Shown here: positions 9,889 to 17,192 of the stretch, piece after piece
Numbering within the stretch: the stretch's first letter is position 1
Layout of the letters: every line of letters starts with the position of its first letter
NCBI RefSeq assembly: GCF_016127915.1
Contig: NZ_CP066059.1
Coordinates: forward strand, 806,001-870,000
Source of the DNA: Streptococcus oralis
Lineage (GTDB): Bacteria; Bacillota; Bacilli; Lactobacillales; Streptococcaceae
Length of the DNA: 64,000 nucleotides
Direction of reading: 5' to 3'
Notes under the pieces: model-generated
Seen by the model: the letters and a program-made list of their open reading frames with translations, nothing else
Told to the model about the DNA's origin: nothing
Databases searched by the model: none
Translations under genes and position numbers: made by a program

Positions 9889-11067
9889 CTACCTTTGATT
9901 AGGATCCCCTTTTTCCTTATTACGATAGTATGTAATAAACTCTTCCTGACTGTTGACAATATGCTCCTGCCCATCTACTGAGTTTTCCGCAGGATTTTTC
10001 ACATCGTCAAATAAATTCGTTCCTTCCTTATACAAGAGCTGATAAATTGGCACTCCATAAAATGCCTCATTCACAAAAAACTGGACTAGACCTAGCAACT
10101 CCTACTCTAATTTTTGCAACAGCTTTACAACTTGCTGATTATCAATCCTCACATAGTATACACCACTATCATTGACAAGTTTATCCTCTTTATACTTAGC
10201 AATCTTTACAGCATAAAGACCCCTTGGTAGGGGTTGGTTGGCAAAAAATTCCTTCATGAGCGCTTCAAGCTCTTTAAGATAGTCATCATACAAGAGATCT
10301 CTTTTTTCTTTTGGAACGAAATATTGAAATTCAAATATTGGGATAAGAATCTCTTTTTGGAAAAGATATTGAGCATCCATTGGGTACATTCCTTGCAGAG
10401 CTTGACCCTTGCTTTGATTTTCCTCTAATATTTCATTATAAAGATAAATATTATCAGATTGGTTATTAAATTCAAAACCAATACCTTGATACTTCAAATC
10501 AGGAAGTTTAGGATCTTTGATTGAACTGTCCAGTGTTTTTAAAAATTCGCTGGTGCCTGGACTAACTTCAATCCCTAAATAGGCTAGTTCTGGGAAAACA
10601 TCATAAATTTTTTTATAATTCTCGTGATCAACCTCTGCATCTGTCTTTCCATATGTTTCATTTTTCGAAAAGCGAGTATAGTATTTAAATCGAGTTTTAA
10701 CCTGATAGGTTTTTCCGGCTATATTTCCACTGTAGGTACCATGGATTATAAATCCTCCCACGCTTGTATAGTTTTTCTCGTATTTTTCTAACTCAAACTG
10801 TCCTGTAAGACCGTAATTTTGATAAGAACGATGCACAGCCTACTCAATCTCAGTTCGACTTGCATGGGCAAACAGCCCCCACATATCCATTAGAGCAAGA
10901 ATAGGACTACTCACTATGAAGATTACAACTGGGATCACTATGGATAAGCAACCTATTAATAGCCAATTTCTTTTCTTGACCTTTCCTTCAGATTTTTTAG
11001 TAGTTCTCTGTCTCCTTTTTAAGATTAGAATGAGCAAACCCAAAAGCACCAATACTAGTAAAACCAA
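9889..11067 (-). pseudogene. Membrane-anchored hypothetical protein broken by two in-frame TAG codons
   Basis: Three consecutive open stretches (11067-10840, 10836-10102, 10098-9889) are all in the same frame, separated only by TAG at 10842-10840 and 10104-10102. The fragments behind the stops could start only at GTG or TTG. Read through, they give about 392 residues: a first hydrophobic segment (about 2-16), basic linker, a second hydrophobic segment (about 36-57), then a soluble, Tyr- and Lys-rich domain with no family I recognise. The topology is continuous across the first stop. The likely start is TTG at 11067 with GGAG 8 nt upstream. Alternatively these are three small genes, but phase and position argue for one inactivated gene. 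Confidence 0.65.
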
Positions 11068-11399
11068 TCTACAATCTCCTTTTACTTTGGATAGCTGTTA
11101 ACAGATGTATAGGAGACTGACAGAAATACTCGTCTTACTTGCTAACTTATCCTGAATTCCATAAACTCGTCTGAAACGAGGAACAATCCTTGTCTCATTA
11201 TACCACATGAGAGATACCGTGAGAAGATGAGAGAAGTAAAAAACACCCTATGGTGCGAACCCTGAAGTGTTGTAAATGCTATATTGTAACAGGTTCTTAA
11301 GGTTTTGAGGCAACTGACTTTGTCAGATTGCAGCCTCATTTGTAAGTGACTAAAGTCGCAACAACTGTGTCAATTGCACCAATTTAAGTATGAAAGTAC
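11068..11399. other. Intergenic stretch with small hairpins and an extended -10 promoter
   Basis: No convincing gene. It contains CTCGT-ctgaa-ACGAG (about 11166-11180), TCTCAT-N8-ATGAGA (about 11193-11212), and an interrupted inverted repeat GAGGC..CTGAC..GTCAG..GCCTC (11307-11337). On the minus strand TGGTATAAT (11205-11197) is an extended -10 box about 130 nt upstream of the broken gene. The pattern suggests remains of a small repeat or mobile fragment, but I do not recognise a named element. Confidence 0.45.
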
Positions 11400-11500
11400 A
11401 AAAAGAACACCCCGAAAGGTGCTCTTTGTAAGTATCGTAATTCTTTCGAATGAACGTTTACTAAATTGTGATACTTTACGAGCTTTCTTAAGATCTGGTT
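11400..11500 (-). pseudogene. Decayed duplicate of the rpsI 3' end with its terminator
   Basis: These 101 nt match 16175-16275, the last part of rpsI plus its terminator, at 95 positions with no gaps. The copy keeps the KARK.SQFSKR coding tail, but one alanine codon has become valine and the TAA stop has become TCA. It also keeps the GAGCACC/GGTGTTC hairpin. Homology stops abruptly on both sides. It is in the same orientation as rpsI and marks the far edge of the malolactic module. The 150 nt from here to mleP show no gene. Confidence 0.9.
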
Positions 11501-11651
11501 GGAAAGTGTGGGTTTCAGTTGGGTTAAAAACAGCACAATATCAAGGCTTTTCAGAACGATATCTACTGATTCATTTCATAAAATTTGAACCAATATTTTT
11601 TAAATAGGGGAATTTCTTAACACAAAACTTTCAATCCTATCCTCTTCCTTC

Positions 11652-12599
11652 TTATCCTAATAAAGTTTGTAATATTGGAATAACAACGATAAATAGAACC
11701 GTACTTAGAGTCACTACATTCGTAGAGAATTCCACATCTCCTTTTCCCTGATTAGCAAGGATTGGGAGAACAGCTAGAGCTGGCGTAGCGGACTGAATCA
11801 TAAAGGTCTTAAATTCTACTGTCGCCATATTTGGGGAAAAGAACTTCAATACAAGAAGCATGATTAGAGGAGCTAGGATAAAGCGTCCAACTAAAGTGAC
11901 AATCGTATCTTTATCAAAAGCAATGGTATTCAAGCCTGCCTTTGCAAGAACGATACCAATATAAATCAGAGATAGGGGAGTGACGATATTTCCAACATAG
12001 GTTAAGGTATTCGTTGCGAAATCTGGAATAGGAATTCGGAGAATCAAAAATAGTAGAGCCACAAGAAAACCTACAAGCGGAGCTGGTAGTAATTTCTTCC
12101 AGTCAAATTTACTTGTCTTCTTGCTTTGACCCGATTTACTATCGCTCGTCATCAAATACACGCCCAATGTCCATGTGGAAATCGTATTGGTGATATAGTA
12201 AATTAAGCAATAAGGCAGAGCCTGATCCCCAAAAAGAGCAACGTTTAAAGGTAAACCAATAAAAATAGTATTAGCATTCACAAAGGTATTAATCATGGTT
12301 CCTCGTCGTCCTGGACGGACCTTAAAAACCATAACTGCAATATAAGCTACAATATATCCCAAGATAAAGGCCACAAATGTATAAAGGAGACCTCCAGAAA
12401 GACTGATTAGTTTATCTAGTGTTAGGTATTTCATCACCGACACAAAGATTGACGCTGGCAAGGCTACATTCATGATCAAACGAGATAGGTTAGGTCCAAA
12501 GGCATCTCCAAACCATCCCTTCACCTGAAGAATATACCCCAAAACAATGATAGCGATAATCGGAATGATACTCGTAATCGAGGTTAAAAAGAGTGACAT
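11652..12599 (-). CDS. mleP: Malate permease (auxin efflux carrier family)
   Basis: A 315-residue integral membrane protein of the AEC transporter family with about ten hydrophobic segments and the family features VNANTIFIGLPLNVALFG and ATPALAVLPILANQG. Placed directly after mleS (77 nt), it very probably exchanges malate for lactate in malolactic fermentation. The start at 12599 (MSLFLTSITS) is chosen because AAAGGA lies just upstream; a longer frame to 12629 lacks a site. Function follows from family and context. Confidence 0.88.
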   Translation of the reverse strand: MSLFLTSITSIIPIIAIIVLGYILQVKGWFGDAFGPNLSRLIMNVALPASIFVSVMKYLTLDKLISLSGGLLYTFVAFILGYIVAYIAVMVFKVRPGRRGTMINTFVNANTIFIGLPLNVALFGDQALPYCLIYYITNTISTWTLGVYLMTSDSKSGQSKKTSKFDWKKLLPAPLVGFLVALLFLILRIPIPDFATNTLTYVGNIVTPLSLIYIGIVLAKAGLNTIAFDKDTIVTLVGRFILAPLIMLLVLKFFSPNMATVEFKTFMIQSATPALAVLPILANQGKGDVEFSTNVVTLSTVLFIVVIPILQTLLG

Positions 12600-12676
12600 A
12601 GGTATCCTTTCTAAATTACTTAAGTCCACAGCCCATATAAATTTGTCGCTAGTGAAGGATAGGCAGCAGCAATGAA

Positions 12677-14302
12677 TTATTTATACTCTGGATACCACTT
12701 CAAATCACGAACGGCTTTGGCCATATCTGTTTCCTTAGCACGCGCAAGACCTTGCTCTTGCGCTTTTTTAGCGACTGCTTCTGCTACTTTAATAGAAACA
12801 TCTGCTACATACTTGAATGGTGGCAAGACAGGAGCTCCTGGTTGACCTGGATTGACAATACCACTCAATGAATGAGCCGCTGCTCCAATCATTTCATCAG
12901 TCAAAAGACTTGCTTCAGAAGCCAGCATACCTAGACCAAGACCTGGGTAAATCAAGGCATTATTGGCTTGACCAATCACATAGTCGACACCTTTATAAGA
13001 AACTGTATCAGCAGGAATTCCTGTTGCGACAAAAGCTTTGCCATCTGACCATTCAATCAAATCTTTGGCACTAGCTTCTGCTAGTTTGGTTGGATTTGAC
13101 AAAGGGAAGATCATCGGACGCTCTGTGTTTTTACACATAGCTTCTACTACTTCTTTAGTGAAGGTATTAGGCTGAGTCGAAGTTCCTACAAGAATGGTTG
13201 GCTTCACAGTCTTCACTACTTCAAGCAGGTCAGTCAACTTGTCTGCGTTACTAAAGTCAGCACGTTTCTTAGCAAACGGTTTTTGCTCAGGAGTTAGGTC
13301 ATCCATGTCATCAAAGAGAAGACCTTGTTTATCAACCATAAAGAAACGTTTATAAGCTTCTTCTTTAGAAAGACCTTCACTAACCATTTCACGAAGAACA
13401 CGAGAGGCAATTCCTGCACCCGCAGTACCACCACCATAGCAGAGATAAACTTGATCTGTTAATTTTTCACCACTAATATCCAGTGAACCAAAGATACCAC
13501 CCAAGGTAACGATTCCTGTGCCTTGAATATCATCATTAAAAGTTGGAATTTGTTTCCGGTATTTTTCAAGAATATTGGCAGCATTCAAGCGACCGAAGTC
13601 TTCCCAGTGAAGGTAGAGTTTAGGAAAGAGACGTTCTGCTGTTTGAACAAATTGGTCAACGAAGTCGTAGTAACGATCTCCGCGAACCCGTTCGTGACGA
13701 TTCCCTAAGTAATTAGGATTGTTACGAAGTTCTTCACGATTAGTCCCTGCATCAATGACTAAAGGAAGGACCATAGAAGGATCGATTCCAGCAGCACCCG
13801 TGTAGACCATCAATTTCCCAACAGAAATATCGACACCATTTGTTCCCCAGTCACCGATTCCAAGGATTCCTTCTGCATCTGTTACAACAATGAGACGAAT
13901 CTCGCGATTCCCAGCAGCATTTTTCAAAGTGGCTTCAATATTTTCAGGATGATTGATATCAAGATATCCCGCATATTGTGGATCTACAAAGAGGTCACTA
14001 TAGCCTTCAATAGTATCTGCAATAGTTGGATCGTATACAATTGGATTGAATTCCTCCAAATGATGAGAAAAGAGGTAATAGAAAAGAGTCCGGTTGGTAT
14101 TAAAAATTTCCATTAGGAAAAGACGCTTTTCCAAATCATTGGCTTTTGTTTGCATCTGTGCATAAGTTTGCGCCGCTTGTTCTTCAATCGTTTGAACATA
14201 AGGTGGCAATAAACCAATAAGACCTAGTTCCTTCCGCTCCTCTAAGGTAAAGGCAGTTCCTTTATTGAGGAAAGGGTTGTTTAAAATATCATGTGCAGTC
14301 AT
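12677..14302 (-). CDS. mleS: Malolactic enzyme
   Basis: Cytoplasmic NAD- and Mn-dependent enzyme converting L-malate directly to L-lactate and CO2, which raises pH and feeds proton-motive force. The 541 residues match my recollection of Lactococcus and S. mutans MleS along most of the length. Visible landmarks are the N-terminal [26 protein letters not shown], the dinucleotide-binding [13 protein letters not shown] and [10 protein letters not shown]. The malolactic versus malic enzyme call rests on this similarity and on the mleP and mleR neighbours. AGGAGG precedes the ATG. Confidence 0.92.
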
Positions 14303-14325
14303 AGTGCAACCTCCTTTTTACTTCT

Positions 14326-14334
14326 ATTATACCA
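14326..14334 (-). promoter_or_regulatory. Extended -10 promoter of mleS-mleP
   Basis: On the minus strand TGGTATAAT (14334-14326) is an extended -10 element 23 nt before the mleS ATG. The -35 region is weak, as expected for an activated promoter; MleR is the obvious candidate activator. Confidence 0.65.
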
Positions 14335-14660
14335 CTTAAAACGAATTGTTTAGAAAACTTTGTTGTTTAAAAAATACAATCGTGTACGCATATGTTATAA
14401 TGAGTCTACGAAGACAATTTCTAATAAGCTCTTTTATACTTAAAACACTACTGTTAATGGCACTTTAAGTCGTTATATTTTATAAAGTTCTGAACTCATA
14501 AAACTCTCGATGATCACTCTTTACTAAAAGTTTCGAGTAAAAGAAACTAATCATACAAATTGGCAATCCGAATTAAAATAAATATTATATAAGTTTGTTA
14601 TATAGTACTTTGTATTTTTTAAGGTGTTTTTTTGTCATACAAAACTTGTATTCTATTTAT
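14335..14660. other. AT-rich intergenic region between mleS and the XRE gene
   Basis: There is no gene here. On the plus strand TGTTATAAT (14393-14401) is an extended -10 box, so a transcript may start near 14408 and give a leader of about 250 nt. Nearer the XRE gene TTGTCA (14632-14637) is followed after 17 nt by ATTTAT (14655-14660). LysR-type binding sites for MleR are expected here but I cannot point to one with confidence. Confidence 0.45.
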
Positions 14661-15011
14661 ATGACGAATAAAAACTATTTACAACAATATATTTCCCAAA
14701 AAGTGAAATATTTTCGAACACAGAAAAAAATGAGCCAGGAAGAACTTTCAGAACAAGCGGGACTTGGGCTTAAGTATATCAATCAACTTGAAAACCAAAA
14801 TGTGAATCTGACCATTCACAGTCTTGAAAAAGTGATTGTCGCCCTAGAGATGACCCCAGAGGAATTTTTCAATTTTGATAGCCTTGAATCAACCTCTGAT
14901 AAGACCGACAATCTTTCACTCAAAAGAATCAACATGAAGATTAAACAGCTCCCTATTGATAAACGAGAAAAGATGTTGGTCATTTTTGAAAGTATCTTAG
15001 ATAACCTTTGA
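14661..15011 (+). CDS. Small XRE-family transcriptional regulator
   Basis: A 116-residue protein with an N-terminal Cro/C1-type helix-turn-helix: KVKYFRTQKKMSQEEL, AGLGLKYINQLENQNV and LEKVIVALEMTPEEFF (about 12-70), followed by a short C-terminal helix region. It sits on the opposite strand between mleS and mleR and may regulate one of them. The start is uncertain: ATG 14661 has no ribosome site and overlaps a promoter-like sequence; internal Met24 (MSQEEL) would cut into the HTH. Target unknown. Confidence 0.8.
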   Translation: MTNKNYLQQYISQKVKYFRTQKKMSQEELSEQAGLGLKYINQLENQNVNLTIHSLEKVIVALEMTPEEFFNFDSLESTSDKTDNLSLKRINMKIKQLPIDKREKMLVIFESILDNL

Positions 15012-15138
15012 TATCCCTGACTCACTTACATTTTAACCGGTGAATACTCGTATAGTCAAATTGTAGGATACGGATAAAAAGTATTTATCTGGTGATTTCC
15101 ACTTATTTTCCTTCTCCAACTAATGAAAGTGAGCCCAT

Positions 15139-16017
15139 ATGAATTTAAAAGATCTACAATATTTTTATGACCTCTGCCAACTTCAATCCTATACGGAAGT
15201 AGCAAAACAACACAAAGTCAGCCAACCATCTATTTCTTATGCCATCAAGCGCTTAGAGGAATCTTTTAATTGCAAATTGGTTCACCATGATCCCTCGCAT
15301 CGTTCCTTTAAACTAACTCCTCAAGGACAAATCCTTCTGAAGCATACAGAACTGATTTTGCCTGAGGTCATTTCTACTCGCAAAGAAATTAATCGTTCCT
15401 TGGCGCATTGCTCTACTGTAGGATTCCCTCCTATTATCATTCAGTATCTTTTCTCTGTCTTAAATAAAGAAACTGAATTTGATTTTTTAAAAAAGGTACG
15501 TCCTATTCGTGGTGGATCCGTAGAATTATTAAATCTTCTCCTTAAGGGAGAACTAGATGCGAGCTTACTCGGATTGATTGAACCACTCAATCATCCTTCA
15601 ATAGAGACACATGAACTCTTTCATAAAGAACTGTATGTCGTTTTATCTAAGAACCATCCTCTTGCTACTGCTCCTTCCTTCGCTTTTGAAGATTTAGTAG
15701 ATCAATCCTTTATACTTTTAGACGAACACTTTGTTCATCTGAAAGCTTTTGAACTACTTAATCAAAAGCATCAAAACAAGGCAGAAATATTCTTTAAGAG
15801 TGACGACATTGTCATCATTAAAGAACTTTTAAAGAAAGGGATTGGCGTTAGTTTACTGGCAGATATCGCACTTTCTGATGAAGATGATGATTTAATAAAA
15901 ATCCCTCTAATACCGGAGGACCAGATAACATTTACAGTTTATTACGCTTATCTCAAATCAACTACACTGTCATCAGAAGTAGAAGCCTTATTTAATCTCA
16001 TTAAATCATATGAATAG
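15139..16017 (+). CDS. mleR: LysR-type regulator, probable malolactic activator
   Basis: A 292-residue LysR-family protein. The N-terminal winged HTH (LKDLQYFYDLCQLQSYTEVA, VSQPSISYAIKRLEESF) is followed by a periplasmic-binding-like effector domain. Its position beside mleS-mleP, on the other strand with the small XRE gene between, fits MleR, which in lactic acid bacteria activates the malolactic genes in response to malate. The name is inferred from context. A strong terminator follows. Confidence 0.85.
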   Translation: MNLKDLQYFYDLCQLQSYTEVAKQHKVSQPSISYAIKRLEESFNCKLVHHDPSHRSFKLTPQGQILLKHTELILPEVISTRKEINRSLAHCSTVGFPPIIIQYLFSVLNKETEFDFLKKVRPIRGGSVELLNLLLKGELDASLLGLIEPLNHPSIETHELFHKELYVVLSKNHPLATAPSFAFEDLVDQSFILLDEHFVHLKAFELLNQKHQNKAEIFFKSDDIVIIKELLKKGIGVSLLADIALSDEDDDLIKIPLIPEDQITFTVYYAYLKSTTLSSEVEALFNLIKSYE

Positions 16018-16062
16018 AAAAAAACTCTAACTATCAACTACCTGATAGCTAGAGTTTTTTAC
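16018..16062 (+). terminator. Terminator after mleR
   Basis: AAAACTCTAACTATCA, a short loop and TGATAGCTAGAGTTTTTT form a long near-perfect stem with a T-run on the plus strand. With A-runs on the other side it could also work in the reverse direction. Nothing else is evident up to 16172. Confidence 0.9.
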
Positions 16063-16172
16063 ATTATAGGTATTAGACTAAAGCACGAAGAAATAGGATA
16101 TGATCGCCGAATTTTTCATTTACCTGATACCATTCAACGAGATTCCCAATTATAAATCTACAAAATGTCGAT

Positions 16173-16199
16173 AAAAAAAGAACACCCCGAAAGGTGCTC
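16173..16199 (-). terminator. rpsI terminator
   Basis: On the minus strand GAGCACC, loop TTTCGG, GGTGTTC and a run of seven T residues follow the rpsI stop. The same hairpin is present in the decayed duplicate at 11400-11500. Confidence 0.92.
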
Positions 16200-16225
16200 T
16201 TTGTATGTATTGTAATTCTCTCGAA

Positions 16226-16618
16226 TTAACGTTTACTAAATTGTGATGCTTTACGAGCTTTCTTAAGACCTGGTTTCTTACGTTCAACTTTACGTGAGTC
16301 ACGTGTAAGAAGGCCTGCGCGTTTCAATGAATCGCGGAAGTCTGGGTCTACTTGAAGAAGGGCACGAGCGATACCGTGACGAATAGCTCCTGCTTGACCA
16401 GCGTATCCACCACCTACAACGTTAACGAAAACGTCGTATGAACCTACAGTTGAAGTAACTGCGAATGGTTGGTTGATAACAAGACGAAGGTCAGCGTGTG
16501 GGATGTACTCTTCAACATCTTTTTTGTTAACAGTGATTTTACCAGTTCCTGGAACAAGGCGAACGCGTGCAACAGCGTTTTTACGACGTCCAGTACCTGC
16601 ATATTGTGCTTGTGACAT
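16226..16618 (-). CDS. rpsI: 30S ribosomal protein S9
   Basis: Small-subunit protein whose C-terminal tail contacts tRNA in the P site. The 130 residues are full length, with [17 protein letters not shown] at the N-terminus, the [19 protein letters not shown] core and the basic tail ending SQFSKR. It is co-transcribed with rplM, 18 nt after it. Its 3' end is duplicated in degraded form at 11400-11500. Confidence 0.98.
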
Positions 16619-17083: not shown

Positions 17084-17108
17084 GATTTCTCCTATATGAA
17101 TATCGTTT

Positions 17109-17181
17109 TTGTTTACAGGGCGGATGTTCCGGTCCGCGGGGTATTTGAAAGGTTCCGGGGCCTTACAAATGGGGTAAACAA
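17109..17181 (-). ncRNA. L13-type ribosomal leader RNA
   Basis: The rplM leader is closed by a perfect 8-bp helix, TTGTTTAC (17181-17174) with GTAAACAA (17116-17109), enclosing GC-rich segments that can pair further. Position, size and closing helix fit the L13 leader known upstream of rplM in Firmicutes, thought to let L13 repress its own operon. I identified it by eye; a covariance-model search would decide. Confidence 0.75.
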
Positions 17182-17192
17182 TACCGTCTACT

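Follow-up and report, generated by a model that had tools for sequence, protein, structure and literature searches.

A probable integrase-less malolactic cassette at the rpsI 3' end of Streptococcus oralis

The malolactic module and its rpsI-tail brackets

We analysed a 64,000-nt stretch of the Streptococcus oralis genome (contig NZ_CP066059.1, positions 806,001 to 870,000 of the forward strand; hereafter the window), in which a malolactic gene module lies behind rpsI, the gene for 30S ribosomal protein S9. Window positions 11397-16275 are likely an integrated, integrase-less cassette that resembles a cis-mobilizable element (CIME), carries the malolactic module and occupies an attachment (att) site at the rpsI 3' end. 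We base this reading on the rpsI tails that bracket the module in many species, on the empty site of a relative and on integrase-bearing elements at the same site. Further support comes from mleS, which between species is far less diverged than a core gene, and from other integrase-less cassettes that are permuted at this site.

The first-pass annotation had reported a second copy of the rpsI tail and terminator over 101 nt, with 95 identities, no gaps and the same orientation, and our recomputation gave the same values. The direct repeat that we obtained spans 104 nt (11397-11500 and 16172-16275, 97 identities, gap-free, both copies on the minus strand). The second copy matched with a BLAST E value of 1.1e-39, and there were two matches in total in the 1.9-Mb genome at E≤0.001. 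In the distal copy, TCA stands where rpsI has TAA, so that its stop codon is indeed lost. A tandem duplication or a misassembly as the source of the second tail is extremely improbable. Nothing but the repeat itself speaks for it, the two copies differ at seven of the 104 positions and run on into different sequence, and we rejected it because the same layout recurs in many independent assemblies.

The target gene rpsI occupies 16226-16618 on the minus strand (NCBIfam PRK00132, 195.3 bits, cutoff 112). Its final 50 nt (16226-16275, minus strand) form the proximal att unit, which in relatives goes with the element downstream, and a T1-type rpsI terminator makes up the remainder of the proximal repeat copy (16172-16225, minus strand). 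The PROX spacer (16018-16171, minus strand), which is present in the mle cassettes of other genomes, separates this tail from mleR, a LysR-type regulator gene (15139-16017, plus strand; PF00126 and PF03466) named from position and analogy. Then follow a gene for an XRE/Cro-type regulator (14661-15011, plus strand; PF01381), the malolactic enzyme gene mleS (12677-14302, minus strand; NCBIfam malolactic model, 963.7 bits, cutoff 850) and mleP, a malate permease candidate named from its position (11652-12599, minus strand; PF03547), whose score with the auxin efflux carrier model (164.1 bits) is under the cutoff of 246. The cassette closes with a 113-nt element end that we call ENDA (11501-11613, minus strand) and the distal rpsI-tail copy with its T1 terminator (11397-11500, minus strand), which we read as a displaced att copy. 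A six-frame reading of the PROX spacer for a gene remnant yielded nothing convincing.

Gene coordinates bear out the annotation's statement that only mleP, mleS, the XRE gene and mleR lie between the repeat copies. As it had also stated, neither an integrase nor a relaxase was found among these four genes by gene list and domain or family models. The mle cassette thus has flanks corresponding to attL and attR and an interior without integrase and transfer genes, as is typical of CIMEs, and the module lacks the complete integrase and relaxase of an integrative and conjugative element (ICE) or integrative and mobilizable element (IME).

To place this layout among relatives, 284 genomes of the genus were searched. 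The 104-nt tail matched in 279 of them (up to three candidates scored per genome), and a query of the initial 343 rpsI nucleotides in 280. With mleS as query, 115 genomes matched at E≤0.001, the weakest matches being distant malic enzymes, and 46 rows, counted by eye, had at least 98% identity. A chosen subset of stretches was merged into 75 contigs including the window, and all contig counts given here refer to this chosen set. Nearly full mleS was present in 36 contigs, 32 of which carried rpsI tails. Window-like spacing to a tail on both sides was found in 25 of these 32, from many species, and the proximal tail was complete in 17 of the 25. The cassette lies directly behind rpsI in the window, G115, G125 and G195, and also in G117 with a small extra insert; in the remaining mle contigs other elements lie between rpsI and the cassette. 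Among the irregular contigs, the nearest upstream tail is 4.4 kb off in G070 and G071 and 6.2 kb off in G121, no distal tail was found in G093, the module is interrupted in G185, and mleR or the XRE gene is wholly or partly lost in G203 and G271.

We also searched for empty sites, as the annotation had suggested, and found them. In G118, the rpsI tail is directly followed by counterparts of gL75 (83%) and gL244 (95%), the genes of the window's left flank (10102-11067, minus strand); the 100-nt flank between has an internal deletion. This flank, FLK (11297-11396, minus strand), is the chromosomal sequence beyond the distal tail copy in the window, and it directly follows the native tail with its T1 terminator in 14 of 52 rpsI contigs (G047, G077, G093, G118, G139, G157, G158, G159, G206, G219, G226, G228, G242 and G268). 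G093 also holds mle, at a distance of 30 kb. In G113 the flank genes, together with Opp genes (98-99%), likewise lie behind rpsI; because the terminator at its rpsI end is of a different type, it is not a pristine empty site.

Four mle contigs (G088, G098, G100 and G104) carry the genes at a second locus without tails. This locus, seen in S. mitis-type and related genomes (L155, L159, L160, L161, L165, L167, L168, L192 and L236), has the order mleR-XRE-mleS near an Opp-like gene; mleP follows in G268 and G226 and was not found at the others. The ten mleS genes treated as second-locus form one clade in a quick tree (SH-like approximate likelihood ratio test, 95), the assignment being made from the lack of tails in the stretches examined, of which that of G227 is only 4.6 kb long.

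Divergence of mleS between species

We compared the divergence of 32 tail-flanked mleS genes with that of pheT from the same genomes, pheT serving as a single marker in place of a species tree. In 495 of 496 pairs mleS was less diverged than pheT, with means of 0.043 and 0.152. Between Streptococcus intermedius SK54 and the window, mleS differs by 2.8% (0.028) and pheT by 24% (0.240); at fourfold degenerate sites, 26 of 254 (10%) differ in mleS and 185 of 329 (56%) in pheT. Among 42 mleS genes, those nearest to SK54 are the window's and that of S. sanguinis G184, both at 0.028, and the window's own nearest is that of G120, at 0.017. Such similarity between species is far too high to fit vertical descent. 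We conclude from these distances that mleS has moved between species, though probably not recently in the window's lineage.

The annotation had held that its reading would fail if all relatives carried the module at this spot with the same remnant and mleS followed the species tree. We did not find this combination. Three of the four genomes nearest to the window by pheT (G123, G118 and G113) gave no mleS match; the fourth, G121, has mleS. The comparison of trees that it proposed was less clear than the distances: divergence is far under that of pheT, whereas topology tests were not significant (see below).

Two side observations concern the module genes. At the protein level, mleS matches have 94% identity in Lachnoanaerobaculum, 91% in Mogibacterium and 90% in Gemella (L191, L240 and L196), which suggests that transfer may extend more widely among oral bacteria. 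Within otherwise similar mle modules there are two mleP alleles, with approximately 93-97% and 74-78% nucleotide identity to that of the window.

Tails, permuted cassettes and integrases at rpsI

ENDA is not confined to the malolactic module. It also ends cassette B/C (cadD and an ArsR gene, joined in some units by a P-type ATPase), cassette D (gshF) and cassette E (an ArsR gene and a heavy-metal ATPase, a CopY-like fragment and a copper ATPase), and it recurs at the ends of further units, all unrelated to the mle genes. Cassette A (TMEM175/ion channel/DUF389) has only the last 52 nt of ENDA, at 85%. At E≤0.001, ENDA matched in 103 of the 284 genomes, some with short pieces only. The contigs hold 62 copies of at least 46 nt, 48 of which are bounded by an upstream tail and 52 of which are followed by a tail. 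A second end family with 15 members takes in many mle cassettes without ENDA. A common arm motif across element ends is not claimed, as 92 contexts fell into 20 end families with weak common conservation. Elsewhere in the chromosome, a probable fossil consists of a copy of the rpsI tail (1-86), about 1.2 kb of DNA and a truncated ENDA (1-77) (L272, L273 and similar hits); at L282 ENDA alone was found.

The order of these cassettes behind rpsI varies. Cassette A comes before B/C in G120 but after it in G203 and G063. Likewise, it comes before D in G204 and after it in G071, and before C in G032 and after it in G022, where the stretch end cuts A. Across ten comparisons of permuted cassettes the bodies are 99.1-100% identical. 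Flanks beside neighbours of different kinds agree no better than chance (15-25 of 60). Agreement rises to 49-59 of 60 if the two neighbours share ENDA as their end, start with similar terminators or represent one and the same gene. Twelve of the arrays compared combine the mle cassette with cassettes A-E, and in 11 of them mle is on the outer side; the exception is G023, where a partial A is farther out than mle. Smaller units are found beyond mle in G073 and G203. From this order we take mle to have come earlier, newer units having been inserted beside rpsI.

The tails themselves suggest where recombination takes place. The proximal 50-nt tail of cassette A is identical (50/50) in all five comparisons, and that of cassette D agrees at 48, 50 and 50 of 50 positions. 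Among 184 tails, 58 had unclassed contexts and were set aside; in the other 126, variable tail positions track the type of the downstream terminator (mutual information up to 0.68) and hardly the upstream context (at most 0.074). Taken together, these patterns assign the rpsI 3' end for the most part to the unit downstream of it and put the crossover toward the 5' side of that end. In S. sanguinis G184 and its pheT neighbour G190, rpsI itself is 93% identical to that of the window and the proximal tail of the mle cassette is identical (50/50). We therefore refine the travelling unit, as judged from these alignments, to one that probably includes about 50 nt of rpsI and the terminator. As cassettes bring their own rpsI 3' end, the intact copy in the window is probably that of the element, and the decayed copy the displaced one. 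The annotation was right that one copy is intact and one decayed; the intact copy, which it called native, is probably the incoming one. At four of 30 ENDA loci, away from rpsI (L244, L252, L257 and L258), about 9-14 nt of tail are followed by unrelated DNA. So short a remainder of the tail beside ENDA points to a crossover close to its 5' edge, and the four loci are possible secondary insertions.

Integrases adjacent to rpsI, which the annotation had proposed to look for, were found in relatives. Tyrosine integrase genes of cluster c18 (PF00589 in the one representative tested) lie directly behind rpsI in several of them, accompanied by an HTH_17 gene, Rep_OBD and a marginal FtsK-like gene. 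Of the 28 rpsI contigs with mleS, seven have a c18 integrase in the same array as mle (G073, G093, G172, G208, G216, G240 and G271). A 417-aa rpsI-adjacent tyrosine integrase of a relative had no match in the window's genome (E≤0.001; one family searched).

We propose that the cassette is recombined, in tandem or in trans, by the tyrosine integrase of an ICE or IME resident in the same genome, and that the crossover would fall in the 5' portion of the 50-nt rpsI end. An arriving unit would supply a new rpsI 3' end, stop codon and terminator, and the old end would be pushed outward and decay there. The window's cassette is probably stranded, because the tested integrase family has no match in its genome, or would move only by transformation or once a new element arrives. 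More broadly, the rpsI 3' end of oral streptococci might be an open dock for stress cassettes without an integrase (acid, cadmium, zinc/copper, glutathione, potassium channels), several of them common-ended. These would be excised and inserted in trans by the rpsI-type integrases of passing elements, the newest beside rpsI, and with each insertion the final 50 nt of an essential gene would be exchanged. We offer this generalization tentatively and consider it rather unlikely.

A different origin, compatible with the integrated-cassette reading, is that an ICE or IME lost its integrase and transfer genes by deletion in place and left mle behind as cargo, a course that we regard as somewhat unlikely. 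Consistent with it are C-terminal integrase remnants in two sister ENDA-ended segments (G205 and G213) and short integrase-like open reading frames at the site (cluster c13, 18 in 16 genomes, the longest being PF00589). In contrast, 44 of the 48 bounded ENDA segments gave no integrase trace (tblastn, three integrase families); the four exceptions are the two remnants just named, a 27-kb segment with a Tn916-type integrase (G071) and a 41-kb segment with integrase-like matches (G271). The single compact mle layout in 25 of 32 contigs from many species argues against repeated separate decay. The interior of the mle cassette yielded no remnant of an integrase, so that for this cassette an origin by decay would be no more than a possibility. 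The annotation's interpretation is largely borne out in its att-bounded layout at the rpsI 3' end.

Several findings weigh against the integrated-cassette reading. Besides the missing remnant, the proximal tail is partial or altered in eight of the 25 regularly spaced cassettes (G008, G117, G148, G172, G205, G208, G216 and G279). ENDA ends only 13 of the 32 mle cassettes and is absent from 19 (a count of 14 includes G203, whose ENDA belongs to the next cassette). The proximal tail of B/C differs (40/50) between G120 and G203/G063 in both comparisons. Apart from G023, the mle cassette itself is not permuted among A-E. The distances of mleS and pheT are weakly correlated (Mantel r 0.34, p 0.0135), indicating some co-inheritance, and approximately unbiased tests on mleS rejected neither sanguinis monophyly (p 0.053) nor a mitis-side clade (p 0.19). 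Mobility of the mle cassette by excision is putative, and transformation is a serious partner mechanism that could move it.

Under a rival account, the tails would go back to one ancient insertion, and later spread would be due solely to homologous recombination after transformation, with crossovers in the flanks or between tails. The correlation just given fits this, as do the sister position of the window and G120 in the mleS tree, both falling with G121 in a three-row pheT clade, the two mleP alleles, which point to recombination inside the module, and the lack of a match to the tested integrase family in the window's genome. The other cassettes, however, reorder at the site with boundaries at the tail, and in G184 and G190 rpsI has remained at 93%, in contrast to the identical tail that their mle cassette carries. 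We regard this account as unlikely.

Comparison with known systems

The annotation had named the rpsI 3' end as a reported integration site of streptococcal elements, and published ICEs and IMEs there agree with this (PMC4701971, PMC5357655, PMC5090054, PMC5704250, PMC7563491). These reports describe long direct repeats for two integrase families at rpsI and tandems with CIMEs. According to PMC7563491, CIMEs of S. salivarius occur in tandem with ICEs and IMEs at rpsI and other genes, rpsI being the target of 16 of 37 composites. They are integrase-less, att-bounded and 1.2-13 kb long with cargo, cadmium genes being mostly in CIMEs, and microCIMEs measure 130-220 bp. The mle cassette is like them in its rpsI target, missing integrase and att boundaries. 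It differs in that integrase-less cassettes here also adjoin rpsI directly, several being common-ended, and in that orders are permuted and one cargo is malolactic. Inserts of about 190 nt that interrupt a tail (positions 1-54 followed by 42 to about 102), seen in arrays G208, G216, G271, G172 and G148, resemble the microCIMEs. IMESag-rpsI (PMC5090054) and the rpsI IMEs of PMC5357655 integrate at the rpsI 3' end as the mle module does, but carry an integrase and a relaxase, of which the module has neither. The S. mutans mle locus (PMC10233336) likewise has mleS beside mleP for malolactic fermentation; it also has oxdC and gshR, where the window has the XRE gene and rpsI tails.

CIMEs at rpsI are thus already published. 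No malolactic module at rpsI was found among the papers listed in our literature search, which left subscription papers mostly outside, and the malolactic cargo is new so far as this search shows. The permuted arrays with partly common ends are new here.

Integron gene cassette arrays consist of integrase-less units in variable order at one dock. By analogy, the rpsI arrays would resemble them in layout; unlike integrons, their dock is the end of an essential gene and the units bring their own gene end and terminator.

The module would let an oral streptococcus convert malate to lactate, and related species appear, from their gene content, to stack other stress-survival cassettes at the same site. 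If true, our reading would explain the patchy spread of malolactic fermentation between species, and the permuted arrays make the mobilization of integrase-less cassettes by foreign integrases directly testable. On the other side of rpsI, an L13 leader (RF00555) lies at window positions 17106-17185, upstream of rplM.
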